Assembly (NCBI RefSeq): GCF_024713945.1
Contig: NC_134682.1
Coordinates: forward strand, 1 to 64,000
Direction: 5' to 3'
DNA from: Dermatophagoides farinae
Taxonomy: Eukaryota; Arthropoda; Arachnida; Sarcoptiformes; Pyroglyphidae
DNA length: 64,000 bases
The position numbers and the translations under genes are program-made. Below the pieces are notes generated by a model, which was given only the letters and a program-made list of their open reading frames with translations, was not told where the DNA came from and did no database searches. Numbering within the stretch: position 1 is the stretch's first letter; every line of letters begins with the position of its first letter. Of the stretch, positions 1 through 18,832 are shown one piece after another.

Positions 1-389
1 AACCTAACCAGATCAAAAGTGTAACCAACCTAACCTAACCTAACCTAACCTAACCTAACCTAACCTAACCTAACCTAACCTAACCTAACCAACCTAACCT
101 AACCTAACCTAACCTAACCTAACCTAACCTAACCTAACCTAACCTAACCCAACCTAACCTAACCTAACCTAACCTAACCTAACCTAACCTAACCTAACCT
201 AACCTAACCTAACCTAACCTAACCTAACCTAACCTAACCAACCTAACCAACCTAACCTAACCTAACCAACCTAACCTAACCTAACCTAACCTAACCTAAC
301 CAACCTAACCTAACCTAACCTAACCTAACCTAACCTAACCTAACCTAACCTAACCTAACCTAACCTAACCTAACCTAACCTAACCTAAC
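1..389. repeat. Terminal telomere array (AACCT)n
   Basis: Nearly pure AACCT repeats, the C-rich strand of the TTAGG telomere repeat typical of arthropods. Occasional AACCAACCT variants and one AACCCAACCT variant interrupt it, and a short unrelated bit (about positions 11-27) lies near the tip. The C-rich strand runs 5' to 3' inwards, as expected for a left chromosome end. Only about 390 bp remain before the first retroelement, so the outer telomere is probably clipped by the assembly. Confidence 0.97.
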
Positions 390-1139
390 AACCTTGGTGC
401 ACTGGTCCATCTAATGAAAAAAGATGCCAACAAAATTGAAAATTTGGCGAAGAAAATTCTTAGCTCGTGTACAAACAAAGTGGCAATCGTATGGAGAAAA
501 GCTGACCGTGCCGATGATATTTACCGGAAAAGTAAAAAGATTGCCAAACGAATAGCCAACTCTAATCACTCGTTCGTTTATAAACTGATTCCAATGGCCA
601 ATGTCAAGAGAATGACACATACAAACATCCTCTCAGAATGGGACGAAATGTATCGGACGAATAAGTTTGGCTCCACTGTGAAATCAATCTGCCCTACTGT
701 TGGTAATGCTAGGCAGTTTGCCCCATTTTCGAACTTTTGGTTATCACAAACGTTGACAGGCCATGGGCAATTTGGTGAACATTTAAAACGTTTTGGCTTT
801 ATTGATGATGCAAAATGTCCTTGTGGATATCCAAATCAAAGTGTGCTCCATATGATTAATGATTGTTCCCTGGCCAATCGATTACGAAGTGATTTTATTG
901 CGGCAAAAAGAAGGGCAATCAGTGATAATGAACGACTAAAAATTACCGCCACTTTTTATGAACAACTGGCCATGATGGTTGACATGTATCGATCCAATCT
1001 TCACCGGCAAATGATCTACGATACACATGATTGATCCACTGGCAAATGTAAACAATGTATGGTAACATAGTTACCTTTTGAAACAACAGATGGCAGCACT
1101 ATCGACAAAAACAAACAAAAAAAAAATAATAATAATAAC
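390..1139 (+). mobile_element. 5'-truncated non-LTR retrotransposon in telomere repeat
   Basis: A fragment abutting (AACCT)n on its left that contains the last 206 codons of a LINE ORF2 (414-1034), a short 3' UTR and an A-rich/AAT-rich tail at about 1107-1138. The 3' UTR contains a perfect hairpin, GGTAAC-ATA-GTTACC, at 1061-1075. Position inside the telomere and orientation (3' end toward the centromere) resemble telomere-targeted LINEs (TRAS/SART of moths) and fly HeT-A. The right border is inferred from the tail; no AACCT separates it from the next element. Confidence 0.65.
414..1034 (+). CDS. LINE ORF2 C-terminal remnant (CCHC end)
   Basis: 206 residues, intact to a natural stop but with no reverse transcriptase upstream, so it is the tail of a 5'-truncated ORF2. 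Diagnostic features are the stretch LSQTLTGHGQFGEHLKRFGF followed by a C-x-C-x8-H-x4-C finger (CPCGYPNQSVLHMINDC). This arrangement is typical of the region after RT/RNase H in R1/TRAS/jockey/I-type LINEs. The first Met is only the first one in the surviving frame. It is probably not expressed as a protein. Family level is sound; the clade is an inference. Confidence 0.75.
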   Translation: MKKDANKIENLAKKILSSCTNKVAIVWRKADRADDIYRKSKKIAKRIANSNHSFVYKLIPMANVKRMTHTNILSEWDEMYRTNKFGSTVKSICPTVGNARQFAPFSNFWLSQTLTGHGQFGEHLKRFGFIDDAKCPCGYPNQSVLHMINDCSLANRLRSDFIAAKRRAISDNERLKITATFYEQLAMMVDMYRSNLHRQMIYDTHD

Positions 1140-2972
1140 ATGTACAGCTGGCCTCTGTTTTCATCAATTTGCCCACATATCATCATCAATATCAATGAAT
1201 CAAACGTATCGTCGAATATGAAGTGGAGATACAAACGATGGTCTATCAGCTTGATGTATGATTTAAATTATTGCTTCATCATTTCCATCATCACCATCAT
1301 TTATGGCATCGAATTCCCGGAACGTCCAACTGGCCTCCCGATATGCACATGTGACACAGGATACTTGATTTTACGATTTTACTATTTATTTATTTTATTT
1401 ACTTATTTATTTATTTATTCATCTTGATACCACATGCAACACACTACACAGATCGGGAGGTCGGGGTACAACGAGTAGGGCAGGCACCCGTAAAAAAGCC
1501 ATCGATTGTTACCCGTTCCGGTTGGAACCACGTGAAAATTTCAAAAATATGGACAGTAAATTGCATCACCATCATCATTTGGTCTATTCATATTATCAGT
1601 TAAGTGCTACGGCCGTTCATCATCATTTTCCATCAAATTGCCTATTCGTGTTATCAGTTAAGCGCCATGGCAAATTCTCATCATCATCATCACGGTACTG
1701 CCAATTCGTGTTATCAGTTAAGCGCTACGGCATACACAGTACCATTCAAATCGATTGTAAACTGCAGTCACCCCCTTGGCAACGAAACAACGTGGTATCG
1801 TCCTGATGCATTGCTCAAGATAATGTTGTTGTCAAGGCTTTTAAAATAGTGCTCGACTCATGTTGTGATAAACAACACGCATGATCATCATCAGTACAAT
1901 AAATGATTGAACATTAATTTCGACCACACATCATGATAAATCGAGCATGGCATTTTCATCTCAACAACGTGTATAAAAACCACGCTGAAATTGTTCATCA
2001 TTATCAATCAGCCTTTTTTGTGTGTGGCATGCTGTCGAAATTTTCACTGATCATCATCATATACTTTTCGTCTATGTGCGTCGTGAATTTTGACCTGCAA
2101 ATTTTAAATTGTGCTGAAATTTTTAATCTGTGATCGTGTTCGTCGAATTGTGTGGCTGTGACCTACGTTTTTCGTGTCCCGTCACCTTCCCATTTACTGT
2201 GTGATTTTTTGAACATTGACATTGTGATTTTGTCGATCTTTCACCTGTGTTTTGTGCTTCGAGTCGGCTGGTGCAAATGGCCCAGACCAAAAGAAAAGGC
2301 AGATCACCTAACGACGATATGGAGCGAGGAATGAAGCAACCACGTGATCATGCAAATGTGAAAACAACGACTTCCTTCGGGAAAGTTTCGACACAGGGAA
2401 CCAGCAAGCAGCCGAATGAACCACTCATCACCATCGATGACACTTCTGATTCCGGCGACGATGCTGCCACATTCTCATCCATTCCTGAATCCAATGCCGA
2501 TAAAAAAATCCTCTCCACCACCATAACGAATGTCGAATCGGCTCAATTGGCCCTTAAAGAATTCATGGACGTAAATGGCACGATTAAGGATTCCACCAAA
2601 CTACGTGTGATTGCCGTCTTACAAATGGTTTCGGATCTTCAACAAGAAATCTTCACCTGTATTGTTAAAATGATGGCCGCCCAAAGATATTTAAACCTGG
2701 GTAATGTCGAATCAATTGTTGGTAATGGAAATTCTGAAAACATCCGTCGACAACACCAAAATTCATTCTCTTTTTGCCAGATAAAAATTTCTTTTATTTT
2801 TCTTTTCTTTTATTCTATTCTGTTAAATTTTTTCATTTTTCATTCTGGCTTCACGATGTCAACCCGAATTCTTGATTTCATTTTTGTATCATGTTTTTAA
2901 TGATTGGCCATCGCCGATCAAATTCAATTTGGTTAATAAATAAATTCAATTTAAAAAAAAAAAAAAAAAAAA
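1140..2972 (+). mobile_element. Internally deleted telomeric non-LTR element, poly(A) joined to AACCT
   Basis: About 1.8 kb ending in a 20-nt poly(A) (2953-2972) that continues directly into AACCT repeats. The 5' part has a roughly 59-bp motif present three times (about 1581-1731, core TTATCAGTTAAG), like tandem 5'-UTR promoter monomers of LINEs. An ORF1-like head starts at 2277. The 3' UTR carries hairpin GATTGGC-CATC-GCCGATC at 2902-2919, then AATAAATAAA, then the tail. No RT is present, so it looks like a non-autonomous derivative keeping only the 5' leader, ORF1 start and 3' end. The left border is uncertain. Confidence 0.65.
2277..2900 (+). CDS. ORF1-like protein head of telomeric element
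   Basis: Starts at the ATG of MAQTKRKGRSPNDD; an in-frame ATG lies 30 nt upstream (2247). A basic start is followed by an acidic Ser/Thr stretch (about residues 45-75) and a helical segment around LALKEFMDVNGTIKDSTK, possibly coiled coil as in LINE ORF1 proteins. The last ~60 residues (Phe/Ile/Leu-rich) look like translated 3' UTR rather than protein. It shares the pattern K-R-K-x-x-SPN near its start with the ORF at 3411, supporting one family. No zinc knuckle or RRM is seen. Function is inferred from position only. Confidence 0.45.
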   Translation: MAQTKRKGRSPNDDMERGMKQPRDHANVKTTTSFGKVSTQGTSKQPNEPLITIDDTSDSGDDAATFSSIPESNADKKILSTTITNVESAQLALKEFMDVNGTIKDSTKLRVIAVLQMVSDLQQEIFTCIVKMMAAQRYLNLGNVESIVGNGNSENIRRQHQNSFSFCQIKISFIFLFFYSILLNFFIFHSGFTMSTRILDFIFVSCF

Positions 2973-3203
2973 CCTAACCTAACCTAACCTAACCTAACCA
3001 ACCTAACCAACCTAAGGTTGAATTGGTATAAGTTTGATTGTGCGGGACCTAAACCTACTGAAATAAAACCTCTACCACCAACACAACTAACCTAACCAAC
3101 CTAACCTAACCTAACCTAACCTAACCAACCAACCTAACCTAACCTAACCCAACCTAACCCAACCTAACCTAACCTAACCTAACCTAACCTAACCAACCTA
3201 ACC
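2971..3203. repeat. Interstitial telomere repeats with 75-bp insert
   Basis: AACCT repeats begin at the poly(A) of the preceding element and run to the next one. They are split by about 75 bp of non-telomeric sequence (about 3016-3090) beginning GGTTGAATTGGTATAAG, which has no poly(A) and no visible duplication. Variants AACCAACCT and AACCCAACCT are frequent. Confidence 0.9.
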
Positions 3204-3865
3204 ATATTTTTATGTTGTGTTGAAAATTTTGTTGCATACTTATATTTTGTTCGTACAAATTACATTGTGATCGTGTGTGCTGTGACATTTCACCGTGTGT
3301 CCCATCACCATCCAATCCATTTGTGTGATTCGTGCAACCATCATCACCATCGTCATCATCGTCATTCGGCCCATACACCTGTGTCCGTGGTCTGGCCAGG
3401 GTTCGTAATCATGGTCATTGGCAAGCGAAAGGATGTGTCGCCGAATGTGGAATTGCAACCGGATTCCAAGCAATTTGTTGTTAATCCCTCAACCCAGTTT
3501 TGGCATGCGACGTTTGGATTTGCATTGATCAAACCACCCGCACCACTACGTACCGGACATATTCAACATATCTTGGAATTGGAAAAGACTGGCCGACCAA
3601 CCACCATGAACATTTTGAGCAAGCTGTCCCATCTGGGCCTGGCCTCGAATCATTATCATCATCATCACGAGAAAAAAACCTCGTTTATTTTTTTTTTATA
3701 TTTATTTTACTTTTTATTGTTATTTTCTTTTTCTTTTTCTTTTTCATTTTTTTTTTTTTTTAATTCAAGATAATAGTCCTGTTCCAGGATAATAATTGTA
3801 TTTTATTGAAAATAATGACCGGCCATTGCCGGTCTTTTTCTGGATATAATAAAATTTCATTTCAA

Positions 3866-3902
<37 letters not shown>
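3204..3902 (+). mobile_element. Short telomeric non-LTR element with strong 3' hairpin
   Basis: It is flanked by AACCT on both sides and ends in about 32 A. It contains a leader, an ORF1-like head (ATG at 3411, MVIGKRKDVSPN), a CAT-rich and T-rich stretch, and the hairpin GACCGGC-CATT-GCCGGTC at 3817-3834, followed by AATAAA-like sequence and the tail. It has the same architecture as the element before it: 5' leader, ORF1 start and 3' end, no RT. Unit 1 of the tandem duplication begins inside it (3519), and its 3' half recurs at 12343-12724. Confidence 0.7.
3411..3773 (+). CDS. ORF1-like head of short telomeric element
   Basis: An open frame of 120 residues from the ATG MVIGKRKDVSPNVELQ. The first ~80 residues look like protein (ALIKPPAPLRTGHIQHILEL, then MNILSKLSHLGLASN). 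After a His run the frame runs into T-rich 3' UTR translated as Phe, so the real product is probably truncated by the internal deletion. Unit 2 repeats the part from ALIKPP onward (12347-12616). No known domain is recognised. Confidence 0.35.
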   Translation: MVIGKRKDVSPNVELQPDSKQFVVNPSTQFWHATFGFALIKPPAPLRTGHIQHILELEKTGRPTTMNILSKLSHLGLASNHYHHHHEKKTSFIFFLYLFYFLLLFSFSFSFSFFFFFNSR

Positions 3903-3906
<4 letters not shown>

Positions 3907-3912
3907 AACCTA

Positions 3913-4066
3913 TTTCAAATTTTTATTTATTAGTTTATATTTTTTTTTCTTTTATTTTATTCTTTGTTTTCTTTTTCCTTATCATTGTATCGAATCCTTT
4001 ATATGGGCCATTGCCGACCTTTTTAAATGAATAATAAAATTATTTTTCTTTTTAAAAAAAAAAAAA
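3913..4066 (+). mobile_element. Heavily 5'-truncated telomeric element tail
   Basis: About 150 bp of T-rich 3' UTR with a degenerate version of the shared hairpin (GGC-CATT-GCC core at about 4006-4015), an AATAAAA signal and a poly(A) of about 14 that enters AACCT repeats. Only two AACCT units separate it from the preceding tail. It shows repeated insertion into very short telomere stretches. Confidence 0.7.
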
Positions 4067-4093
4067 ACCTAAACCTAACCCCCAACCTAACCT

Positions 4094-4200
4094 CACTCGC
4101 TTCGCTCGTGAGGTTTTGCTCGAAAGGCTAACCTCCGGGACATCGCAAAACCGTCACTCGCTTCGCTCGTGAGGTTTTGCTCGATTGTCCTCTCGGGAAT
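4094..4200. repeat. Palindromic GCGAAGCG repeat block, unit 1
   Basis: Two copies about 60 bp apart of a hairpin-prone segment, CTCACTCGCTTCGCTCGTGAG (stem CTCAC/GTGAG around a CG-rich loop), each followed by GTTTTGCTCG. It lies just inside the last AACCT repeats. CG-rich against an AT-rich background. The corresponding block in unit 2 is at 13126-13225. Confidence 0.7.
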
Positions 4201-4384
4201 TTGGCCACCGATAATCATTGTGTAAATATCCAAGCAGTTCATTGCATTAATATCAAAAAACAACCAATAAATATTCACAAAACAATCGATTCCGGAAATA
4301 ACTGATAGTTATACCGCAAAACTATGAATATTATGGTGAGGTTTAAATAAACCTTTGATTTAGGAGGAAAATTGGTGAGGTTTA

Positions 4385-4905
4385 AATAAACCTTAAATGT
4401 AGCAAAAAAAAAATTTGAAACACTAGCAAAAAAATGATACAGTAGCAAAAAAAAAAATTTAATACAGTATCAATTTGAAATTGATACAGTGGCAAAAAAA
4501 TTGATACAAAAACGATACTGTAGCAATTTGAAATTGATACAGTAGCAAAAAAAATTGATACAAAAACGATACTGTAGCAATTTAAAATGTAGCAAAAAAA
4601 AATTTGATACAGTAGCAATTTGAAATGGATCAAAATTTTGATACTGTAGCAAAAAAAATTGATACAGTAATACAGTACAGAATAAAATTGATACAAAAAT
4701 GATACTGTAGCAATTAAAAATGCTACAAAAACGCTACAATTGATTTAAAAAGATACTGTAGCAAAAAAGATACTGTAGCAAATATAAAGATACATTACAA
4801 CTGATACTTTTTAGCTACAATTTAAATTGATACAAAGTATCAAAATACCAAAAATTAAAAAATGGCTACAAATATTTTCAACAGATACTGTACCCATATA
4901 ACAAA
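4385..4905. repeat. Degenerate GATACTGTAGC repeat field, unit 1
   Basis: Around 500 bp built from variants of GATACTGTAGCAAAAAAA and its near-inverse GATACAGTAGC, separated by A runs and AATTTAAA/AATTTGAAA spacers. Because GATACTGTAGC and GCTACAGTATC are reverse complements, both orientations occur and local hairpins are possible. A second, sparser patch lies at about 5400-5560. No ORF of interest; frames through it are low-complexity Phe/Tyr/Ile. Confidence 0.8.
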
Positions 4906-6083
4906 TAAATATCATAGATTAAACGTTCTCACTCAAATTCACCAACAATAATTGTAATTTATTATTCTTTTTAGATTCGTTTATATAGTAATTTCAGAAT
5001 TACAATTTGTTTTGTTTTACATCGGATGTTCAAATGCCACATTACCATTTTGGTAATTTGTGTCATTTGTTACAGTCATGACAGGATGTTTTACATTTAT
5101 TAATGCCAAGTAACGTCTTATATGAATGGCGACCGAGGTGGTGTGGTTTCGAGTTTTATATATGTGTGTGGTGATTGGTGTTTATGTTTGGTGATTCTGA
5201 TGATTGTTTTTTATGATGTGATTATAATTCAATTTTGATTTAATAAAAAATAAAATTATATTTTAAAAATATTCATATAATTTCTACAATTAAAATTCAA
5301 TTTTGATGTGTTCACCACATCCTTTGATGATCGGATGTTTAATCGATCATTTCGATTTCCATTTTCGGTATTGTTATGATTTTACGAAATCATAACAATT
5401 CCCTGGCACCCATTTCTCAAATTAATAAAACACTGTATCAAGTAAAAGTATCCAAATAAAAATGTATCAAAAAATGTTACAAAACAATTGATACTGTAAC
5501 GAATGAAAAAGATACATAAAAAACGATACAATGTATCAAAAAAAGGTACAGAAACGTTCGCACAACGGTTGAAAAGGTGAACTTTATTAGTCAACTAATA
5601 AAAGGTTAAACAACAAGTGTGTCCTGTGTTTCGTGTCATGATTTATATACATGTCGTGTCCTTTGTGTGTGTGACATTAGTAGTAGTGGTGGTGTTGTGT
5701 AATGTGTGGTTTTTTTTAAATTTTAAAGGAGCATGACTCCTGATTTTATTTAAAATTATTAAAAAAATAATGAAAATATAAATACAAGAAAAAAAACAGA
5801 AACAAAAAATCTTACAATATTGATAAACATGTAAATAAAAGATAAAAGACTGAGAAAAGAGCTTTAAACGATAAATTTTAAGCATTTATTCATGTTACAA
5901 AAATGTAACTGCACTTTTGAACAAAATGAAAATTGTAAAAAAACACGTGAGTGTTGTTTTTTCTGTTTTTTTTCTTCTTTTTGTGTGACTTTTTCATTAA
6001 TATTCAATTTACTGTGATGATCAAATGTTCTAAAAAAAACATTAATAAAAAATAAAAAATAAAAGTTATCTTTAATTCGTTCT

Positions 6084-6443
6084 TCATTTTAATCTGTTGT
6101 GAATAAATTTTTTACAACATTCATTTCCCTTAAACGTTGGTGGATGAGGTAATAGAAATAATTTATTTTTATTTATTAATTTTTCAATTGCGGAAATCAA
6201 GTGATCATTACTATTAATTTCGAAATTGTTCATAATATCTTCGAACATGGGACATGTGATGATATGGTTGTAATTTTGTTGAGAATCGCATTCTGGGCAA
6301 TTCGGTGATATTCCAATTTTTCTTCTGTTATACAGGTACGCCCTTGAATTCTCTTGCACTCTTTCGAATTCTTCCATAAACGTTTCAATAGACTCCGACT
6401 CATCGTATCTATTCAGTCGTTCCACGTACTGTTGAGGATGCAC
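6084..6443 (-). pseudogene. LINE ORF2 C-terminal remnant, unit 1
   Basis: A minus-strand frame of 119 residues with a C-x2-C-x7-H-x3-C finger (CPECDSQQNYNHIITC) after a helical Arg/Glu-rich stretch. This is the C-terminal ORF2 signature of a second LINE lineage, different from that at 414-1034 (C-x-C-x8-H-x4-C). Relative to unit 2 a short indel near 6150 alters the last ~25 residues; unit 2 has the ending KNKFSDFYYLIHQRLREMN. No RT domain is left. Opposite in orientation to the telomeric elements. Confidence 0.65.
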
Positions 6444-7302
6444 AGTAAATTTTGATTGGAATGAACTCGATGTTGAAAAAGAAAATGAATTTTAATAAAC
6501 AAAAGAAATTACGAAAAAATCAATTGTGTCTTGTGTGTATGTGACTCGAACGGCGTGAACATCGAATGTGTCACCATGTGTCTCGAATGTCTTTGTGTCT
6601 TTTTGAAAAAACCGTTGAGCGAGCGCTTATGTGTATCTTTGTACGAAAGGATTCAACGAGCCAATAGTGTGAGAAGCTTGCGCGCGACTTTTGAATTTCG
6701 TTGTGGAATCATTCATATATGACGATTCTTATCCGAATTATGCTGCAGAGGATGAACGATAACAAAATTACGTTTAGAAAAAATGGTTTTTATTAATAAA
6801 TCATAAGGCTGCAGGCCTACATCCAAACTGAGGTTTTGCGAAGGACATGTCAGAGTGTCCTGATTGATTTCAGGGCCAATAGGGAATTCCCTGTTGACCT
6901 GGAGGAGATCATGGACGATCTCTGAGTTTTTCATTGTTTATTTATTTGTTGTTAACATTTCCGATTATTATTGTTATGTTTCGACATTGTTAGAAGTGAA
7001 TAAATAAAATTTCTGTTAATTAATAAATCATGAAAATTAATTATAAATTTTAACACCAAATCAAAGTTTGAAACACGTGTATTTTAAGCAAGGCAAAATC
7101 ATACAATGCCAATATAATAATTCATAGATATCGTTATTTAACAATATTTTTAACACGTACTATGTTGATTGGACGTTGAAACAGTATTAGTGCCCGTAGA
7201 AGTCATACTTTTTGTTTCCATAAAAATCGATGATTAGAATATTGAAACATTGAAACAATAAAATTATTTTTTGAAGAATTTTTTCCCCCTACCACCATGT
7301 GT

Positions 7303-7610
7303 TGTAGCCTAGAGGATGAAGGACACGAGTTAAAGATAGCAATGGTTCAGAATCGAGAAAATAACAATCCAACCTAACACGATTTCAGAATAGGACACGA
7401 GTTAAAGATAGCAATGGTTCAAAACACATAAAAAAACAAAGTTTATTTTCAATTGTCGTGAAGACAATTGTAAGAAATCGAATTTATTGATATCAAACTC
7501 GGTGATGATGTTCACGTGCTCGTGTCAATTGATTGTCGACTCGGAACATTCGGTCTAAATGGGAGAGGGTGGAAATAGGTAGGAGCATGCGCAGCCAGTT
7601 GACTGCTACA
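7303..7610 (-). mobile_element. LTR of a BEL/Pao-like element, unit 1
   Basis: A minus-oriented fossil LTR of about 0.3 kb with TGTAG...CTACA ends and an internal AATAAA. Its 5' ~45 nt (TGTAGCAGTCAACTGGCTGC and on) match the solo LTRs at 8240 and 10743, so they belong to related subfamilies. Family assignment rests on the BEL/Pao coding relics next to it. Broken and old. Confidence 0.55.
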
Positions 7611-7618
7611 CAATATTA

Positions 7619-7865
7619 ATATTTTTTTTAATTATCTTTATTGAAAGGCGGCAATGGCCACCAAAAATCAAAAGTTAATATAATTCACACGAATAAAAAC
7701 ATACACGAGATATGACAAAAATCACAGGCTTAGTATGATTAGAAAAACCCAGCCTTAAATATGTTCTGAGCCAGGAAATGGCTGACTCAAGGACACAACG
7801 TGACGAGCGTTCATAGATAACGCTACAGAATGAAAAAACTGTTGTTTAATTCAAGTTAGTATTAT
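7619..7865 (-). mobile_element. Non-LTR 3' end with shared hairpin, minus strand, unit 1
   Basis: Read on the minus strand, this ends in hairpin GGTGGC-CATT-GCCGCC (plus positions 7647-7662), then TTTCAATAAAG and an A-rich tail near 7622-7630. It is the same 3'-end design as the telomeric elements but outside AACCT repeats and in the other orientation. The unit 2 copy is at about 16692-16935, where one stem base differs (CCACC side, GACC instead of GGCC). The element could be a SINE using the same 3' end; no ORF is seen. Confidence 0.5.
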
Positions 7866-7872
7866 CAACAAA

Positions 7873-8199
7873 TCAAAAAATACAAAAACTTTTGCCTTCT
7901 TTTGTGCCGGCGTTTCTTTTTCCAACTGATTGGAAAAAGACGTTGTTCAAAGCGACCAATGCTGCATTCGCGTTTAAAGAATTGACTACTTCGATTTTGA
8001 TCATACGCGAAACAAGACAAGTGACCAATAAACCATAAAACTTTTTCCCGTTTCTGTATCGTAAGGGACTAAAGAAATCATTACTGACAGCTTCGAATGG
8101 ACGAGTAAATGGTTCAAATGGAAATATGGATTCATCTGACCAAAGAATGTTGTCGAATAGATTTTGATTTTCTTCCTTCCAACCTAGCATAATAATCAA
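7873..8199 (-). pseudogene. Chimeric frame: mariner-like transposase joined to BEL/Pao integrase relic, unit 1
   Basis: A 108-codon open frame. The first ~27 residues (LGWKEENQNLFDNILWSDES) match the middle of a Tc1/mariner-type transposase around its second catalytic Asp. The rest (YRNGKKFYGLLVTCLVSRMI, then VVNSLNANAALVALNN) resembles the integrase core of BEL/Pao retroelements. It is therefore a fossil junction of two element types, not a working enzyme. Unit 2 (16946-17272) encodes the same residues. Confidence 0.55.
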
Positions 8200-8239
8200 A
8201 TTTAACTCAATTCAACCAATTCAATGCAATCTAACCTAG

Positions 8240-8444
8240 TGTAGCAGTCAACTGGCTGCGCACGCTCCTGCCTATTGCCACCTCTTCCTATTTCGACCGA
8301 GAATGTCGGTGAGAGAAACGAGCATGTTTCCAACCGAAAAATTCCGAGTCAGCATACAATTGAACACACACACACGAACACACACAGTGATTTCGTTTCC
8401 AATAAAATTCAAAATTCGATTCAAAACTTGTCGACATCACGACA
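8240..8444 (+). mobile_element. Solo LTR with 4-bp TSD (CTAG), unit 1 only
   Basis: 205 bp starting TGTAGCAG and ending CGACA, flanked by CTAG at 8236-8239 and 8445-8448. Unit 2 has the uninterrupted site (AACCTAG-CATAATTTC near 17310), so this insertion followed the duplication or was lost cleanly from unit 2. It contains AATAAAA and an ACAC-rich middle. It lies inside the mariner-like transposase relic. Confidence 0.85.
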
Positions 8445-8544
8445 CTAGCATAATTTCAGAAAATTCCATTCGGCGATCACAATCTTCCGGAAACAATTGC
8501 TGAACAAAATGTGGCTTCCATGGCCGATAATTTAGTTCACGGAC

Positions 8545-9290
8545 TTACTTGGTTGGATGTTGATTGAAAAAATCCCGAACTATTTTAACGTTGCTTTCCG
8601 ATGATGACAATGATGTACGGCCACTGTTTTCCGTTCCGAATCTACAACCACTCCTGTTCGTATCGTATTTAACGCTTCTTATGGCCGAGAAGCTTCGCTC
8701 AATAGTGTGCTCTGGAAAGGTTCCGTTATTGGTTTGGATGTTTTTCCTCATTTAATTAGAATAAGATTATTCAAATATCTTTGCACCGCTGATCTGAGAA
8801 AAGCTTTTTTACAAATTTCGATTCATCCCGAACATCGTAAATATCTTCGTTTGTTGTGGAAAGAGAAGGATAATCAGATCAAGAAATACGAGATGACAGT
8901 TCTTCCTTTTGGTGTCATCTCTTCGCCAGCAATTCTTCCTCAAGTTGTGGATAAAATGGTTCAGACTATTGGTAATAATTCTTCTCGAAAAATGCTCACT
9001 GGTGTCACTTATATGGATGACCTGCTCATTGGTTCCAACGATATTGATGACGCGTCAATGTATTGTTGATGCTGAACGAACATTTAATTCTTCTGGTTTC
9101 GAGATCCACAAAATCTATTCTAATGCGTCGATTTCTGATGAAGCGTCTCCTGATAGTTCTGGACTATTGGGCCTGTCTTAGCTAAGCGTATTCTATTATC
9201 GATAATTGGCCGTATTTTCGATCCTTTAGGATTGATTGATCCCCTGAAGCTCCAATTACGTTTAGTTGTATTTTAATGCAGTAATAATAA
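8545..9290 (+). mobile_element. BEL/Pao reverse transcriptase relic, unit 1
   Basis: Fossil coding piece of a BEL/Pao LTR retroelement: RT segments (TADLRKAFLQISIHPEHRKY, VLPFGVISSPAIL, YMDDLLIGSND) and the RT/RNase H joining region with FDPLGLIDP. It is broken in several places and lacks gag, protease and most of the RNase H and integrase. The unit 2 copy lies at 17466-18215. A third copy of its tail follows at 10441-10715. Confidence 0.75.
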
Positions 9291-9757
9291 ACGGGCGAGA
9301 TTAAAGCAATTCAAAACTGAACTGAGAAAGGCGTAAACGCCAATTGTTTAAGTAGCAGTAGAAATCAAATCTAATTATCGAACACCAATCTACTGTTTGT
9401 TTTTGTTTTTTTTTTTAAATTTTAATAAAACCCCTATACCTTTAATAATAGGGGTCATACAATGAAATTTATACGTTGAAAATAAATTTTATTGTATCAG
9501 CTTGTTAAATTGATTTTTGATTAATCATTGTATTTTTCATTTTGCATTTTTATTAATCAATTCATCCAATTCATCAAATTAATTAATTTAAATTTCAATA
9601 TTATTATTAATAAATAATTTGAAACATAATTGTAAGTTGTAATTCTTTTGCTATTGACATGTTCAATGTTTTATTCCTTTCGTATTGAATTTTTTTTAAG
9701 TTTTTGGAAAAATGGACAAACTGGCAAATAATGACAAGCGATACATTGGTTGGATGT

Positions 9758-10440
9758 TGATTGAAAAAATCCCGCAGACTATTTTAACGTTGCCAAGAGC
9801 GCAAATGATCGACAATGATGTACGGCCACTGTTTTCCGTTCGGGGAATCTACAACCACTCCTGAAACGTATCGTATTTAACGCTTCTTGCATGGCCGAGA
9901 AGCTTCGCTCAATAGTGTGCACTGGAAAGGTTCCGTTATTGAATTATAGGATGTTCTTGATCATTTATTTTAGAATAAGATTATACAAATATCACATGCA
10001 CCGCTGATCTGAGAAAGCGCTTTTCTACAAATTTCGATTCATCCCGAACATCGTACAATATCTGGAACGGGTTTGTTGTGGAAAGACAAATTCATAATCA
10101 GATCAAGTTAATACGAGATGACGTAGTTCTTCCTTTTGGTGTAAATCTCTTCGCCAGCAATTCTTCCTCAAGTTGTGGACAAAAATGGTTCAGTCTATTG
10201 GTAATAATGTCTTCTCGAATGAAATGCTCACTGGTGTCACTTATATGGATATATCCTGCTCATTATTTTAGCAACGATATTGGTGACTTGCAGTCACCGA
10301 TCATCCATTGTTGATGCATGAACGAATTGTCAGAGAAATTCTGAATGAAATTCGAAGATCCACAAAATCTATTCTAATGCGTACGATTTTATCGATGAAG
10401 CGTAAACCAAAATCTATTCTGGACTATTGGGCCTGTCTTA
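9758..10440. other. Interleaved mosaic of two unrelated sequences (probable consensus artefact)
   Basis: The stretch alternates short blocks, mostly 5-30 bp, from two sequences that are separate in unit 2: the BEL/Pao relic (17474-18110) and the UBXN7-like pseudogene (19140-19790). Block order follows both sources at once. For example CGATATTGGTGACTTGC (relic) is followed by AGTCACCGATCATCC (pseudogene). The left flank (9452-9757) matches 18849-19139 and the right flank (10441-10715) matches 18111-18375. No recombination process makes such zippering; an assembler averaging two misaligned haplotypes or repeat copies does. Confidence 0.85.
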
Positions 10441-10742
10441 GCTAAGCGTATTCTATTATCGATAATTGGCCGTATTTTCGATCCTTTAGGATTGATTGAT
10501 CCCCTGAAGCTCCAATTACGTTTAGTTGTATTTTAATGCAGTAATAATAAACGGGCGAGATTAAAGCAATTCAAAACTAAACTGAGAAAGGCGTAAACGC
10601 CAATTGTTTAAGTAGCAGTAGAAATCAAATCTAATTATCGAACACCAATCTACTGTTTGTTTTTGTTTTTTTTTTAATTTTAATAAAACCCCTATACCTT
10701 TAATAATAGGGGTAAGAAAATAATAATAAAAAAATAAAATAT
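10441..10742 (+). mobile_element. Third copy of BEL/Pao relic tail
   Basis: Matches 9181-9453 and 18111-18370: the FDPLG-encoding stretch, the A-rich region and the CCCCTAT...ATAGGGG inverted repeat, then AT-rich sequence up to the solo LTR. A fossil fragment, possibly present here only because of the assembly problem just upstream. Confidence 0.6.
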
Positions 10743-10946
10743 TGTCGCAATGTCGACAAGTTAATGAATCGAATTTTGATTTTATTGAAAACGAAATCAC
10801 TGTATGTGTTCGAGTGTCTGTGTTCAATTGTATGAGGACTCGGAATTTTCGGTTGGAAACATGCTCGTTTCTCTCACCGACATTCTCGGTCGAAATAGGA
10901 AGAGGTGGCAATAGGCAGGAGCGTGCGCAGCCAGTTGACTGCTACA
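10743..10946 (-). mobile_element. Solo LTR with 4-bp TSD (ATAT), unit 1
   Basis: 204 bp, reverse complement of the solo LTR at 8240-8444 with roughly 90% or better identity by eye, flanked by ATAT at 10739-10742 and 10947-10950. Together the two form a 2.7-kb inverted pair, but their different target duplications show independent insertions rather than the terminal inverted repeats of one transposon. Confidence 0.82.
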
Positions 10947-10950
10947 ATAT

Positions 10951-11010
10951 ATACAATTTACAGTGCATAAACAAGACAAACATCGCTAATGTTAGATCAA
11001 TTATAAACAG
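10951..11010. other. Second, short interleaved patch
   Basis: Blocks alternate between sequence matching 20281-20340 (CAGTGCATAAA, ATCGCTAATGTTAGAT) and sequence matching 20812-20870 (ACAATTTACA, CAATTATAAACA), again in collinear order. This matches the zippering of 9758-10440 and supports a consensus problem across unit 1. Confidence 0.7.
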
Positions 11011-11425
11011 TCCAGCCCGGTACAGGCGCTTCGCGCCTGCCCCAGACTGGCCCTGCGGGGCTGACTCCTGACATTACAATATAGCTGGATACCCGCAGGT
11101 GTGGCGGCTGCGCCGCCCCCCTGCTTGGTACCCAGCCAAAGGTATTGATTTCTTGAGGTCAATAGAGCTGGAATACCCGCAAGGGGTGGCGGCTGCGCCG
11201 CCCCCCTGCTTGGTATCCAGATCAAAGATATAAATCCTTGACGGTCAATATAACTGCAATACCCGCATGGTGGGGTCGAAAAGCGCCGCCCCCCTGCTTG
11301 GCATGAAAGCCAAAGGTGTCAATTTTAACGCTTCGTGCCAGACGGTGGATTTCTATGCACGGCGTTTTTGCTTCCGGCTTTCGGTTTGGTACCGCAGGGT
11401 CAGCCATGACTTATTGTATTGTACC
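11009..11425. repeat. GC-rich tandem repeat, three ~84-bp units
   Basis: Units begin at 11078, 11161 and about 11247. Each has a TACCCGCA start, a GGCGGCTGCGCCGCC-type palindromic core, CCCCCTGCTTGG, and an AGCCAAAGGT-like spacer ending TTGAGGTC/TTGACGGTC. A perfect hairpin, CAGGCGC-TTC-GCGCCTG, lies at 11023-11039. The base composition is strikingly unlike the AT-rich surroundings. It is absent from unit 2, but a truncated inverted unit lies at 22041-22132. Open frames here are by-products of high GC; no protein signature is seen. Confidence 0.8.
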
Positions 11426-11924
11426 TGACACCTTTGAAAATGAATACGTAAATCCAACATCAACTTATTGATCAAACAGCATACTTATTATTGTTCATCG
11501 ATATCGATAAGAAAAAAGCCATACAGCTCAGCTTCAAGTTTTACTCACACAGGCACACAAAATGAAAATCACGTTTGTCACATGTATTATCACAATAATC
11601 AATTCGAAAAATTCGAATTCGAACTCTTTCTATGTTTTGCGTGATTGAATGACTAAGACCATAATATTGGATGCATAAAATATTGCAGCAACGTGTGCTG
11701 AGCTAGAACAATCGAATTTTGAGCTTTGTCAAAGCTACATACCACAGAATGCGTTTCTTTGAAAGCGACTTCTACTTCTGAGCTGGACGAACTGTTCAGC
11801 GGCATTCAAAAGTTTTCCCGCATGCTCAGACACACACACACACAACACACACTGAGTAGCTCATACAAATAGTTATGTTTGTACTGAAAATAAGCAAGGA
11901 ATGGCCGGCTCAGCTTCAATTTAC
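11426..11924. other. Unit 1-specific spacer, no gene seen
   Basis: About 500 bp of AT-rich sequence with an (AC)n run near 11831-11850 and, at 11871-11918, a ~45-bp segment (GTTTGTACTGAAAATAAG, then GGCCGGCTCAGCTTC) that is found inverted at 21987-22034. Nothing coding is recognised. Confidence 0.6.
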
Positions 11925-12091
11925 ATGTTTACACACATCCTTAGCAATTCATCAAGTATAGTAGATGATAGATCAACAGTAACAATTTACTGTTTGTTGT
12001 TTTCTCGTATTGTTTCTAATGAATGGGATGCTCCCATCGATAGTGATTCTTCTCATGAATGGAATGATTCGATTTCTGAATGGTCAAATCT

Positions 12092-12322
12092 TCAACGAAT
12101 AAAAATAGATCGCTTCATTTCTGATACTTCAACTTTACATTGCTCCAAAATTGAGCCAGTTGTCATCAATTTTTTATGGCAATTTTTGATTGTAATTGGG
12201 CTAATTGTCTGGTTACGATTGTATTTTTGTCGCCACCAACGTTGAACTTTTATCACAGAGTTCCAGACTTTATATCTGGCAGCCACTTCCGCTCTTTGTT
12301 GATTGCTTAAAGCGAATGCCAT
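12092..12322 (-). pseudogene. Mariner-like transposase N-terminal helix-turn-helix relic, unit 1
   Basis: A 76-residue minus frame starting MAFALSNQQRAEVAARYK and containing VQRWWRQKYNRNQTISPITI and MTTGSI. This resembles the N-terminal HTH (DUF4817-like) of Tc1/mariner-type transposases: a start of the form 'LSNxxRAEVAxRY', then the spacer and TGS motif. No catalytic domain is attached here; related middle pieces lie at 7.9-8.5 and 17.2-17.5 kb. The unit 2 copy (20995-21225) is identical in protein sequence. Confidence 0.6.
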
Positions 12323-12342
12323 TGAATTTGAGAGTTTAAATT

Positions 12343-12688
12343 TGCATTGATCAAACCACCCGCACCACTACGTACCGGACATATTCAACATATCTTGGAA
12401 TTGGAAAAGACTGGCCGACCAACCACCATGAACATTTTGAGCAAGCTGTCCCATCTGGGCCTGGCCTCGAATCATTATCATCATCATCACGAGAAAAAAA
12501 ACCTCGTTTATTTTTTTTTATATATTTATTTTACTTTTTATTGTTATTTTCTTTTTCTTTTTCTTTTTCATTTTTTTTTTTTTTTAATTCAAGATAATAG
12601 TCCTGTTCCAGGATAATAATTGTATTTTATTGAAAATAATGACCGGCCATTGCCGGTCTTTTTCTGGATATAATAAAATTTCATTTCA

Positions 12689-12724
<36 letters not shown>
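12343..12724 (+). mobile_element. Duplicated 3' half of telomeric non-LTR element
   Basis: Copy of 3521-3902 in unit 2, with hairpin GACCGGC-CATT-GCCGGTC at 12641-12658 and a long poly(A) entering AACCT. Small length differences in homopolymers separate it from unit 1. Confidence 0.8.
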
Positions 12725-12727
<3 letters not shown>

Positions 12728-12733
12728 AACCTA

Positions 12734-13090
12734 TTTCAAATTTTTATTTATTAGTTTATATTTTTTTTCTTTTATTTTATTCTTTGTTTTCTTTTTCATT
12801 TCTTATCATTGTATCGAATCCTTTATATGTTGAACCATTGTATTCGATTTTTTTTTTCATGATTGGCCAATGCCGATCTAGATCTTGAAAGAACAATAAA
12901 TTAGTTTTTTTTTAAAAAAAAAAAAAAAAAAAAAACCTAACCTAACCTAACCTAACCTAACCTGGTTGGCCATTGCCGACCTACTTTTAAAGAAAGAAAA
13001 ATAAAATTTATTTTTTAACCTAAAAAAAAAAAAAAACCTAACCTAACCTAACCTAACCTAAATTAATTTTAACCTAAAAAAAAAAAAAAC
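12734..13090 (+). mobile_element. Nest of three truncated telomeric element tails
   Basis: Three successive 3' ends, each poly(A)-terminated and followed by AACCT repeats: about 12734-12934 with hairpin GATTGGC-CAAT-GCCGATC (12861-12878); about 12963-13036 with GGTTGGC-CATT-GCCGACC (12964-12981), only some 73 bp long; and about 13064-13090, little more than a tail. Unit 1 has only one tail here, so extra tails were gained or lost after duplication. They extend the covariation series of the hairpin. Confidence 0.75.
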
Positions 13091-13104
13091 CTAAACCTAA
13101 CCTC

Positions 13105-13225
13105 CGGGACATCGCAAAACCATCACTCGCTTCGCTCGTGAGGTTTTGCTCGAAAGGCACTCCTCCAGGACATCGCAAAACCGTCACGAGCTTCGCTCGT
13201 GAGGTTTTGCTCGATTGTCCTCCCG
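13105..13225. repeat. Palindromic GCGAAGCG repeat block, unit 2
   Basis: Counterpart of the block at 4094-4200, with small substitutions (for example GTCACGAGCTTCGCTCGTGAG in the second hairpin, which lengthens the palindrome). No coding potential. Confidence 0.65.
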
Positions 13226-13424
13226 GGAATTTGGCCACCGATAATCATTGTGTAAATATCCGAGCAGTTCTTTGCATTAATATCAAAAAACCAATGAATA
13301 TTCACAAAACAATCGATTCCGGTAATAACTGATAAATATACCGCAAAACTATAGACATTATAGTGAGGTTTAAATAAACCTTAGATTTGGGAAGACAATT
13401 GGTGAGGTTTAAATAAACCTCAAA

Positions 13425-13865
13425 TGTAGCAAAAAAAATGATACTGTAGCAAAAAAAAATTGATACTGTAGCAATTTAAAATGTAGCAAAAAAAATTGAT
13501 ACTGTAGCAATTTAAAATGTAGCAAAAAAATTGATACTGTAGCAATTTGAAATGTAGCAAAAAAAAAAATTTGATACAGTAGCAATTTGAAATGGATCAA
13601 AATTTTGATACTGTAGCAAAAAAAATTGATACAGTAATACAGTACAGAATAAAATTGATACAAAAATGATACTGTAGCAATTAAAAATGCTACAAAAACG
13701 CTACAATTGATTTAAAAAAATACTGTAGCAAAAAAAAAGATACTTTAGCAAATATAAAGATACATTACAACTGATACTTTTTAGCTACAATTTAAATTGA
13801 TACAAAGTATCAAAATACCAAAAATTAAAAAATGGCTACAAATATTTTCAACAGATACTGTACCC
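13425..13865. repeat. Degenerate GATACTGTAGC repeat field, unit 2
   Basis: Same field as at 4385-4905 but about 80 bp shorter, with a different number of units in the first half and near-identity in the second half. Repeat-number change since the duplication fits slippage. A sparse patch follows at about 14380-14540. Confidence 0.8.
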
Positions 13866-15062
13866 ATATAACAAATAAATATCATAGATTAAACGTTCTC
13901 ACTCAAATTCACCAACAATAATTGTAATTTATTATTCTTTTTAGATTCGTTTATATAGTAATTTCAGAATTACAATTTGTTTTGTTTTACATCGGATGTT
14001 CAAATGCCACATTACCATTTTGGTAATTTGTGTCATTTGTTACAGTCATGACAGGATGTTTTACATTTATTAATGCCAAGTAACGTCTTATATGAATGGC
14101 GACCGAGGTGGTGTGGTTTCGAGTTTTATATATGTGTGTGGTGATTGGTGTTTATGTTTGGTGATTCTGATGATTGTTTTTTATGATGTGATTATAATTC
14201 AATTTTGATTTAATAAAAAATAAAATTATATTTTAAAAATATTCATATAATTTCTACAATTAAAATTCGATTTTGATGTGTTCACCACATCCTTTGATGA
14301 TCGGATGTTTAATCGATCATTTCGATTTCCATTTTCGGTATTGTTATGATTTTACGAAATCATAACAATTCCCTGGCACCCATTTCTCAAATTAATAAAA
14401 CACTGTATCAAGTAAAAGTATCCAAATAAAAATGTATCAAAAAATGTTACAAAACAATTGATACTGTAACGAATGAAAAAGATACATAAAAAACGATACA
14501 ATGTATCAAAAAAAAGGTACAGAAACGTTGGCACAACGGTTGAGAAGGTGAACTTTATTAGTCAACTAATAAAAGGTTAAACAACAAGTGTGTCCTGTGT
14601 TTCGTGTCATGATTTATATACATGTCGTGTCCTTTGTGTGTGTGACATTAGTAGTAGTGGTGGTGTTGTGTAATGTGTGGTTTTTTTTAAATTTTAAAGG
14701 AGCATGACTCCTGATTTTATTTAAAATTATTAAAAAAATAATGAAAATATAAATACAAGAAAAAAAACAAAAATAAAAAATCTTACAATATTGATAAACA
14801 TGTAAATAAAAGATGAAAGACTGAGAAAAGAGCTTTAAACGATAAATTTTAAGCATTTATTCATGTTACAAAAATGTAACTGCACTTTTGAACAAAATGA
14901 AAATTGTAAAAAAACACGTGAGTGTTGTTTTTTCTGTTTTTTTTCTTCTTTTTGTGTGACTTTTTCATTAATATTCAATTTACTGTGATGATCAAATGTT
15001 CTAAAAAAAAAAACATTAATAAAAAATAAAAAATAAAAGTTATCTTTAATTCGTTCTTCATT

Positions 15063-15422
15063 TTAATCTGTTGTGAATAAATTTTTTACAACATTCATTT
15101 CCCTTAAACGTTGGTGGATGAGGTAATAGAAATCGGAAAATTTATTTTTATTTATTAATTTTTCAATTGCGGAAATCAAGTGATCATTACTATTAATTTC
15201 GAAATTGTTCATAATATCTTCGAACATGGGACATGTGATGATATGGTTGTAATTTTGTTTAGAATCGCATTCTGGGCAATTCGGTGATATTCTAATTTTT
15301 TTTCTGTTATACAGGTACGCCCTTGAATTCTCTTGCACTCTTTCGAATTCTTCCATAAACGTTTCAATAGACTCCGACTCATCGTATCTATTCGGTCGTT
15401 CCACGTACTGTTGAGGATGCAC
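15063..15422 (-). pseudogene. LINE ORF2 C-terminal remnant, unit 2
   Basis: Duplicate of 6084-6443 with a few substitutions (for example QQNY to KQNY in the finger) and the probably ancestral C-terminus ending FTTD. It starts at an internal Met (MHPQQYVE); upstream RT sequence is missing, so this is a 5'-truncated copy rather than a gene. Confidence 0.65.
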
Positions 15423-16281
15423 AGTAAATTTTGATTGGAATGAACTCGATGTTGAAAAAGAAAATGAATTTTAATAAACAAAAGAAATTATGAAAAAATC
15501 AATTGTGTCTTGTGTGTATGTGACTCGAACGGCGTGAACATCGAATGTGTCACCATGTGTCTCGAATGTCTTTGTGTCTTTTTGAAAAAACCGTTGAGCG
15601 AGTGCTTATGTGTATCTTTGTACGAAAGGATTCAACGAGCCAATAGTGTGAGAAGCTTGCGCGCGACTTTTGAATTTCGTTGTGGAATCATTCATATATG
15701 ACGATTCTTATCCGAATTATGCTGCAGAGGATGAACGATAACAAAATTACGTTTAGAAAAAATGGTTTTTATTAATAAATCATAAGGCTGCAGGCCTACA
15801 TCCAAACTGAGGTTTTGCGAAGGACATGTCAGAGTGTCCTGATTGATTTCAGGGCCAATAGGGAGTTCCCTGTTGACCTGGAGGAGATCATGGACGATCT
15901 CTGAGTTTTTCATTGTTTATTTATTTGTTGTTAACATTTCCGATTATTATTGTTATGTTTCGACTTTGTTAGAAGTGAATAAATAAAATTTCTGTTAATT
16001 AATAAATCATTAAAATTAATTATAAATTTTAACACCAAATCAAAGTTTGAAACACGTGTATTTTAAGCAAGGCAAAATCATACAATGCCAATATAATAAT
16101 TCATAGATATCGTTATTTAACAATATTTTTAACACGTACTATGTTGATTGGACGTTGAAACAGTATTAGTGCCCGTAGAAGTCATACTTCTTGTTTCCAT
16201 AAAAATCGATGATTAGAATATTGAAACATTGAAACAATAAAATTATTTTTTGAAGAATTTTTTCCCCCTACCACCATGTGT

Positions 16282-16683
16282 TGTAGCCTAGAGCAGTGTT
16301 TCCCAACCTTTTTTTCTTCGCGTACCCCCGGGGGTTTTTTCTTTACAAAATTCTAGTACATACAAAGTTACCTTTTGCATATCCCACGAACCCCCAGGGG
16401 TTCGCGAACCACCGGTTGGGAATCACTGGCCTAGAGGATGAAGGACACGAGTTAAAGATAGCAATGGTTCAAAACACACAAAAAAACAAAGTTTATTTTC
16501 AATTGTCGTGAAGACAATTGTAAGAAATCAAATTTATTGATATCAAACTCGGTGATGATGTTCACGTGCTCTTGTCCTTTTGATTGTCGGTGTATGTGTG
16601 TGTGTGTGTCGACTCGGAACATTCGGTCTAAATGGGAGAGGGTGGAAATAGGCAGGAGCATGCGCAGCCAGTTGACTGCTACA
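16282..16683 (-). mobile_element. LTR of a BEL/Pao-like element, unit 2 (interrupted by MITE)
   Basis: Duplicate of the LTR at 7303-7610, carrying the hAT MITE at 16294-16428 near its 3' terminus. A fossil; no matching internal region adjoins it in the expected orientation. Confidence 0.55.
16294..16428. mobile_element. hAT-type MITE with 8-bp TSD, unit 2 only
   Basis: 135 bp with 15-bp terminal inverted repeats, CAGTGTTTCCCAACC and CAGTGATTCCCAACC (one mismatch). It is flanked by perfect GCCTAGAG duplications (16286-16293 and 16429-16436). Unit 1 has the single uninterrupted GCCTAGAG (about 7307-7314), the empty site. An inner GC-rich inverted repeat (CCCCCGGGGG / CCCCCAGGGG) adds hairpin potential. 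8-bp TSDs and CAGTG-type ends are hallmarks of hAT elements. It has no coding capacity and needs a transposase from elsewhere. Confidence 0.93.
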
Positions 16684-16945
16684 CAATATTAATATTTTTT
16701 TTAATTATCTTTATTGAAAGGCGGCAATGACCACCAAAAATCAAAAGTTAATATAATTCACACGAATAAAAACATACACGAGATATGACAAAAATCACAG
16801 GCTTAGTGTGATTAGAAAAACCCAGCCTTAAATATGTTCTGAGCCAGGAAATGGCTGACTCAAGGACACAACGTGACGAGCGTTCATAGATAACGCTACA
16901 GAATGAAAAAACTGTTGTTTAATTCAAGGTAGTATTATCAACAAA

Positions 16946-17272
16946 TCAAAAAATACAAAAACTTTTGCCTTCTTTTGTGCCGGCGTTTCTTTTTCCAACT
17001 GATTGGAAAAAGACGTTGTTCAAAGCGACCAATGCTGCATTCGCGTTTAAAGAATTGACTACTTCGATTTTGATCATACGCGAAACAAGACAAGTGACCA
17101 ATAAACCATAAAACTTTTTCCCGTTTCTGTATCGTAAGGGACTAAAGAAATCATTACTGACAGCTTCGAATGGACGAGTAAATGGTTCAAATGGAAATAT
17201 GGATTCATCTGACCAAAGAATGTTGTCGAATAGATTTTGATTTTCTTCCTTCCAACCTAGCATAATAATCAA
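16946..17272 (-). pseudogene. Chimeric mariner/BEL-integrase frame, unit 2
   Basis: Same 108 residues as the frame at 7873-8199. Upstream on the minus strand (to about 17465), more mariner-like transposase is recognisable in pieces, including the stretches LSRHIIHKVLKNTLNYRPW and FPEDCDRRMEFSEI. These are separated from the chimeric frame by a roughly 53-bp segment that repeats ATTATGCTAGGTT at both ends, probably a local duplication. Confidence 0.55.
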
Positions 17273-17465
17273 ATTTAACTCAATTCAACCAATTCAATGC
17301 AATCTAACCTAGCATAATTTCAGAAAATTCCATTCGGCGATCACAATCTTCCGGAAAAAATTGCTGAACAAAATGTGGCTTCCATGGCCGATAATTCAGT
17401 GTATTTTTCAACACTTTATGAATGATGTGACGGGATAACCTGGTTTCTCTGGCTGCTTCACGGAC

Positions 17466-18370: not shown

Positions 18371-18610
18371 AATACACTCACGCAAATCATACCACAGAAA
18401 ATTTAAAGCAGTGGTACAGCGCTAAAGTAAAGAAGAAATGCCAGCGGCGCTCAGCATCCACGCACGTAATGAATTATACTTATAAAGTTACAATTATGAA
18501 CTTGGAATGTGTAAACCAAATTTCGACTGTATCACTTTATGAATAGTCATTGATTTTATGAACAGGACAAAAATCAACTTTTTGAATTTAAATAAAGACA
18601 TCGGTTGAAA
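18371..18610. other. Unit 2-specific spacer, no gene seen
   Basis: AT-rich sequence absent from unit 1, which jumps from the ATAGGGGT end to CATACAATGAAATTT. It contains GCAGTGGTACAGCGC and a GCCAGCGGCGCTCAGC island. No ORF or RNA gene is recognised. Confidence 0.5.
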
Positions 18611-18832
18611 AATTAAAAAAATTTTCTAAGTCAAAATCATTTTCAAAAAATTTTCTAAGTCCAAATCATTTTCAAAAAATTTTCTAAGTCAAAATCATTT
18701 TCAATAAAATTTTCTAAGTCAAAATCATTTTCAATAAAATTTTCTAAGTCAAAATCATTTTCAAAAAATTTTCTAAGTCAAAATCATTTTCAATAAAATT
18801 TTCTAAGTCAAAATCATTGTTAAAAAATTCGA
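18611..18832. repeat. Minisatellite, seven ~27-29-bp units
   Basis: Seven tandem copies of ATTTTCTAAGTCAAAATC followed by ATTTTCAA(TA)AA. Units vary mainly between TCAAAAAATT and TCAATAAAATT joins, and one carries GTCCAAATC. There are no variable spacers. It occurs only in unit 2 and sits 270 bp upstream of the UBXN7-like pseudogene. Confidence 0.85.

Follow-up and report, generated by a model that had tools for sequence, protein, structure and literature searches.

The telomeric long interspersed nuclear elements (LINEs) of the mite Dermatophagoides farinae carry, shortly before their poly(A) tail, a hairpin that is under selection at the level of the RNA and that is nearly restricted to these elements. 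The hairpin was noticed at the left end of contig C6 (NC_134682.1), whose positions 1 to 64,000 are referred to here as the window; this end consists of (AACCT)n repeats with pieces of elements interspersed. A first-pass annotation of the window had described several covarying hairpins with a GGC-CA-GCC heart in front of junctions between poly(A) and AACCT. We followed this structure through the genome of 62,435,336 bases in 22 contigs. The elements that carry it resemble the TRAS family of telomere-specific LINEs, and their reverse transcriptase-bearing protein, encoded by the second open reading frame (ORF2), probably recognises the hairpin when it copies the element RNA.

Within the window, five plus-strand hairpins lie exactly where the first-pass annotation had placed them, and each of them is followed by poly(A) that is joined to CCTAACCT. 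They are GATTGGC-CATC-GCCGATC (2902..2919; poly(A) junction at 2953..2972), GACCGGC-CATT-GCCGGTC (3817..3834; 3871..3903), the duplicate of the latter (12641..12658; 12695..12724), GATTGGC-CAAT-GCCGATC (12861..12878; 12914..12935) and GGTTGGC-CATT-GCCGACC (12964..12981; 13022..13036). The tail at 3817 is the same as those found at C7:16867 and C8:4427351. Since the hairpins at 3817 and 12641 are part of a duplicated block, the window holds four independent hairpin types, and the stem-pair changes reported between them are correct. A sixth plus-strand copy (4002..4019) is degenerate, with a broken outer stem, and is followed by AATAAA and poly(A). The minus-strand hairpin GGTGGC-CATT-GCCGCC (7647..7662) had been said to follow the same rule as the others; it does so in its stem, but it is an inverted relic followed by A8 and not by poly(A)-AACCT. 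Its duplicate at 16735-16720 carries GGTC in place of GGCC.

Covariation and genomic position of the hairpin

Pairing in the stem was scored in two sets of sequences. Among the first 24 sequences, 93.5% of the cells are paired and double changes are found in 18, and among 23 distinct 3' ends the corresponding values are 96.9% and 12; in both sets, none of 500 shuffles reached either value. When the partners in the first set were slid against each other, pairing amounted to 20-60%. The number of pairs with a double change and the number of pair types were not above those of the shuffles in either set. RNAalifold, run on 119 columns of the 23 distinct 3' ends much as the first-pass annotation had proposed, returned exactly this hairpin, with six pairs, as the sole structure. 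Among 1275 column pairs in a blind mutual-information scan, the fifth pair from the loop ranked first, the seventh pair third and the sixth pair seventh; rank 2 is not a pair.

Kinship between the sequences was handled by simulation on a tree of the reverse transcriptase (RT) cores of 12 element types, under a null in which the columns change independently but with an equal number of changes. On this tree, whose branch lengths are approximate, in which types D and E were set as sisters from their 81% identity and from which type M was left out, pairs 2 and 3 (counted from the outer end) show four changes on each side, all of them simultaneous, and all types pair. This gives a total of eight compensatory double changes. 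The independent-column null matched the observation in 4 of 13,889 runs for pair 2 and in 1 of 12,319 runs for pair 3, and for pair 4 in 436 of 13,126; the combined p for the three pairs is 4e-7 (4e-6 without type A, 2e-6 with type A unbulged and 2e-5 without type G). The 12-type simulation was conditioned on the parsimony changes and adds types D and E to a weaker earlier simulation with 10 types, which had yielded p values of 0.03, 0.03 and 0.08 per pair. Covariation therefore exceeds the background that the first-pass annotation had asked it to exceed. A single recent duplication as the common source of the hairpins, the other outcome that would have spoken against their significance, can be ruled out as well, since identity in the RT core falls to 41% between some of the ORF2 types that carry them. 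Pair 4 most often (17 of the 23 ends) takes the form of a U.G wobble with the U on the 5' arm, which fits RNA of the sense strand and not a DNA palindrome.

The strict stem-loop pattern GRYYGGCCANNGCCRRYC has 35 matches genome-wide, and its reversed control has none. Twenty-six of the matches lie at contig ends, two in a cluster in the interior of contig C5, and seven are interstitial. All 35 read as element 3' ends in which AATAAA, poly(A) or telomere repeats follow. Even among the seven interstitial relics, six retain AATAAA and six an A-run of 7-10, and degenerate telomere repeats come next at C1:2.07M, C3:4.33M and C6:0.72M. A looser pattern (GGCCAN{2,3}GCCRNY...AATAAA) yielded 95 rows at 87 distinct places (reversed control: 9), 86 of which were read with one bulged base permitted, one place on C12 being left out. 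A full stem is present at 58 of the 60 contig-end or C5-cluster places versus 10 of the 26 interior ones; six of these ten are relics of the same elements, hence the full stem occurs at only 4 of 20 places outside of them. Both hairpin patterns demand GGCCA, so that the constancy of the CA loop is an unbiased observation only in the 36 cases selected by their junction (see below).

Poly(A) begins 41-54 nt past the GGCC core in 21 of 23 representatives (28 and 36 nt in the two exceptions), and AATAAA is located 26-34 nt past the core in 20 of the 23. Upstream of the hairpin, at a distance of up to about 45 nt, 56 of the 60 contig-end places have TGTA, often as part of TTGTATT, versus 12 of the 26 interior ones; this motif is possibly a UGUA polyadenylation enhancer or a part of the recognised tail.

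The elements can also be approached from their junctions with the telomere. The pattern A10-CCTAACCTA occurs at 39 places (15 forward, 24 reverse; reversed-pattern control: 2), 37 of them no more than 60 kb from a contig end and two in the interior C5 cluster. A hairpin stands 45-124 nt before the A/CC boundary in 36 of the 39. As to the remaining three, the one at C5:2823087 is an unrelated A-run, the readable part upstream of C8:9921 contains only TGCTGCC, and at C8:34931 a 3'-arm remnant (CCGCT) alone is recognisable. The 5' end of the element faces the tip, and the poly(A) the centromere, in 35 of the 39 junctions; the others are the two in C5, C8:9921 and C9:3580433. Of 32 distinct junctions, 31 have the register A(n)-CCTAACC and one has A(n)-TG-TAACC, with neither A(n)-CTAACC nor A(n)-TAACC among them. 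The prevailing register is the one expected from the TRAS1 endonuclease, for which PMC7265360 gives the nick as TT^AGG, although the comparison rules out only two of the five nick positions, since a nick after GG or GGT yields identical letters. A published search template, as quoted from PMC12564400, is poly(A)-CCTAACCTAA for TRAS and poly(A)-GGTTAGG for SART; the latter has no match in this genome, versus the 39 places for the former. Both the junction and the direction of insertion match TRAS and not SART.

The LINEs that carry the hairpin

The RT frames that PF00078 detects at contig ends span about 800-1400 codons and more. For a census of ORF2, we used the C-terminal half of the ORF2 of an element on contig C4 (714 residues) as the query and kept copies with at least 535 aligned residues, shorter telomeric pieces being left out. 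This gave 28 long telomeric copies with 40-100% identity to the query. The eight longest interstitial RT relatives are 28-37% identical to it, and no hairpin was listed within 20 kb downstream of these eight. Compared among in-genome relatives only, the RT cores form 12 types that are 41-86% identical between types (types I and L are identical).

Endonuclease (EN) and RT domains were detected with Pfam in all four types scanned, and the GDFN and SDH motifs are present in nine of nine ORF2 frames read. When the EN of the four types was compared with solved endonucleases, TRAS1 was the nearest (58-93 bits), while R1Bm scored 20-37 bits in three types and had no match in the fourth. As far as the four scanned types show, the mite elements combine an APE-type EN, nearer to TRAS1 than to R1, with an RT, and they are inserted in (TTAGG)n. 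Read from stop to stop, the frames of the C4 element comprise 626 amino acids for ORF1, which has no Pfam match, and 1244 amino acids for ORF2. A Myb-like domain between EN and RT is described as a TRAS feature in PMC5537684; no Pfam match to such a domain was listed in the scanned types, and no search aimed at Myb was made.

The hairpin stands between an ORF2 and the next one in 23 of the 28 copies, at a distance of 1.7-3.2 kb downstream, and the 3' untranslated regions (UTRs) of the mite elements are therefore probably long. This distance is nearly constant within a type (3200/3203/3205, 2578/2578, 2091/2088 and 2033/2008/2031 nt; 2011 nt in all three D copies; 1666 and 1663 nt in both E copies).

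Non-autonomous partners share the same kind of 3' end. Two short elements at C4:31924-33584 join a block that matches the sequence ahead of ORF1 at 96-99% to a hairpin 3' end that is 74% like that of the full element. A further example lies at 2220-2972 of the window, where a 226-amino-acid frame, open from stop to stop (2220..2900, plus strand; first 181 residues without Pfam match), forms the body of a short element that ends in the hairpin at 2902. At the loci examined, 15 short insertions of 16-315 nt lie between telomere repeats, and ten of them contain the hairpin core. The insertion at C6:12964, inside (AACCT)n, begins exactly at the hairpin, and that at C10:3338296 begins within a 3' arm; such starts reflect 5' truncation, as expected if copying begins at the poly(A).

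The genome also encodes telomerase. Its RNA-binding domain (PF12009, 63.6 bits) is located at C1:166455-166832 in an 850-amino-acid frame, with an RT match beside it at C1:165375, so that the genome has both a telomerase gene and many telomeric LINEs. This TERT domain and the abundant (AACCT)n rule out a HeT-A-like replacement of telomerase and telomere repeats. The HeT-A, TART and TAHRE elements of Drosophila resemble those of the mite in that their 5' ends face the tip, in their tandem arrays and in their long 3' noncoding parts; the mite differs from them by keeping both TTAGG repeats and the telomerase gene, by the EN in the scanned types and by junctions that lie in telomere repeats.

With TRAS, the mite elements have in common an ORF2 with APE endonuclease and RT, the poly(A) end, the (TTAGG)n target, the poly(A)-CCTAA junction and a host that retains telomerase. 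They differ in the host being a mite, in the many types within one genome, in the position of the hairpin 1.7-3.2 kb after ORF2 and in the covarying terminal hairpin itself, of which we have met no TRAS description. The first-pass annotation knew of no published description in mites; among the open-licence papers that searches for telomere elements in mites returned, no title or abstract opening mentions TRAS-like elements or a 3' hairpin in mites, and PMC11074847 was the single D. farinae paper found there with both 'telomere' and 'retrotransposon'. One D. farinae relative is already named 'tras3' at NCBI, however, and the elements are thus not wholly unannotated.

Probable recognition of the element RNA by the ORF2 protein

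The way in which a LINE enzyme finds the RNA of its own element has been worked out in detail in few cases. Like LINEs of the stringent type, the mite elements possess a conserved 3'-terminal stem-loop. We consider it probable that they are TRAS-like stringent LINEs, accompanied by short derivatives, and that recognition of the 3' hairpin by their ORF2 protein precedes target-primed reverse transcription at the poly(A). This reading draws on two precedents: the requirement for the 3'UTR of SART1 and its recognition in trans (PMC7265360), and the stem-loop of the zebrafish L2 element ZfL2, which is bound by ORF2 between EN and RT (PMC4176376). The element RNA would end in the order UGUA, hairpin, AAUAAA and poly(A), and the ORF2 protein would bind the hairpin through the shape of its stem and its constant CA loop. 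The ORF2 endonuclease would nick the TTAGG strand at TT^AGG, and the freed ...GGTT-3' end would pair with the poly(A). Reverse transcription would proceed from there through the hairpin toward the 5' end of the RNA; the 5' end of the resulting copy would face the chromosome tip, and truncation at this end would be frequent. Non-autonomous copies would presumably be served in trans.

SART1 of Bombyx mori is likewise a telomere-repeat LINE, and its 3'UTR, which has stem-loops, is required and recognised in trans (PMC7265360 and PMC5135761). It inserts in the opposite direction, however, and its essential stem-loop is described as lying in the middle of the 3'UTR, closely followed by GGUU motifs, whereas the mite hairpin is short, reads GGC-CA-GCC and lies 41-54 nt before the poly(A). 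UnaL2 and ZfL2 of the L2 clade also have a short 3' stem-loop in common with non-autonomous partners, which are short interspersed nuclear elements (SINEs). The elements of this group end in short 3' repeats, in contrast to the poly(A) tail of the mite elements, and it is their loop that provides family-specific recognition, whereas in the mite the CA loop is constant and the letters of the stem vary.

The constant loop and the drifting stem suggest that recognition is shared across types. It is conceivable, and we advance it tentatively, that at least 12 telomeric LINE types share one 'tail code', the reverse of the situation in zebrafish L2, where loop differences separate families. Any ORF2 protein could then copy the RNA of other types and of short parasites, and the chromosome ends would be built by a common pool of enzymes. 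Cross-mobilisation between families becomes directly testable. The eight compensatory changes over 12 ORF2 types amount to a natural mutagenesis that names the base pairs that matter, next to a loop that does not change. With them, a candidate structure for 3' recognition is now defined in TRAS-like telomere elements and in chelicerates, and in a genome that has retained a telomerase gene.

Several observations weigh against recognition by ORF2. The UGUA and AAUAAA motifs that flank the hairpin make it a candidate for a function in forming the 3' end. The stability of single hairpins is unremarkable (z -0.6 to -3.6), and the stem has irregularities: type A has a bulged U, types D and E have a 6-nt loop (GCTGG-CCATGT-CCGGC in type D, as read from the C1 3' end), and the outermost pair is absent in three types. 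Five of the 28 ORF2 copies (three of type A, one of H and one of L) have no hairpin found before the next element, which lies on the same strand. The sequence of two of these, both A copies on C4, was read, and they form part of a repeated unit of 9.7 kb that looks like a product of recombination, with no terminal poly(A)-AACCT. The interval from ORF2 to hairpin was read throughout in the C4 type-A copy and elsewhere over 126-1454 nt of its 1.7-3.2 kb, and the hairpin assigned to type G may belong to an intervening short element. The EN-RT linker contains a cluster of unvarying basic residues (346-403 in type A), placed like the tail-binding region of ZfL2; it was assessed with no control and is not counted as evidence.

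The foremost alternative is that the hairpin serves 3'-end formation, stability or export of the RNA and is read by host factors instead of the ORF2 protein. The close and regular company of AATAAA and TGTA is what such a function would look like, and we regard it as a serious though rather unlikely explanation. A general host signal should turn up among host genes and the interstitial relatives as well, whereas the strict pattern matches no host gene, all of its 35 places being element 3' ends, and the looser pattern finds a full stem in only 4 of 20 non-element places. Restriction to the elements would also suit binding of the hairpin by the ORF1 protein, which might package the RNA or guide it to telomeres, and the C4 element does possess the 626-amino-acid ORF1 frame. 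This ORF1 has no Pfam match, and the published binding of a 3' stem-loop maps to ORF2 in the account given by PMC4176376; we therefore rate a role of ORF1 as improbable.

A function of the sequence as a DNA palindrome, for instance as a site for a telomere protein or as a cruciform, has in its favour the near-palindromic arms and the location of most copies at chromosome ends. We count it as rejected, because the U.G of pair 4 in 17 of the 23 ends would be A.C on the opposite strand, the distance to AATAAA and poly(A) is kept, and the hairpin still precedes AATAAA in six of the seven interstitial relics. Common descent alone, with the likeness inherited and the pair changes due to chance, fits the nearly constant GGCCA..GCC core, the relatedness of the types and the two pair-count measures that did not exceed the shuffles, but it was already disfavoured by the tree-based null (p 4e-7; 2e-5 in the worst of the three variants) and by flanks that have diverged while the stem still pairs, and it is the least credible of all. 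Recognition by the ORF2 protein remains the reading that we prefer.

Further features of the window and of the contig ends

Close to the contig tip, a telomeric (AACCT)n tract (22..389, plus strand) is followed by the C-terminal 216 amino acids of an ORF2 (384..1034, plus strand). Its last residues are like those of type G, and along residues 501-710 of the query it shares 37% identity with the C4 element. An Rfam scan of window positions 1-20000 assigned no family to the hairpin and gave two weak matches elsewhere, far below the gathering scores.

Contig C4 shows two peculiarities. Tandem 9.7-kb element units at C4:5.7-29.4 kb are 95-97% alike and have no poly(A)-AACCT between them; they were probably amplified by recombination and not by insertion. 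At the tip itself (C4:1-5000), G-rich tracts like the other telomere strand are followed by 2500 N and then by the C-rich strand, so that this end is either inverted or misjoined. Telomeric sequence also occurs away from the ends: the cluster at C5:2823087-2856700, 2.8 Mb into the contig, holds element 3' ends as well as telomere repeats, in both orientations, and represents either an old chromosome fusion or an assembly join. The interstitial relics at C3:1398010 and C3:4327433 adjoin telomere repeats and may be traces of ancient chromosome ends or of insertions into interstitial TTAGG.

The large duplicated block of the window (about 3500-9500 and 12330-18400) carries RT frames of another retroelement at 8614-9069 and 17535-18107 (RVT_1), with a related frame at 9979-10314. 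A GC-rich 85-bp tandem repeat of 2.6 copies lies at 11077-11301, within the otherwise AT-rich end.

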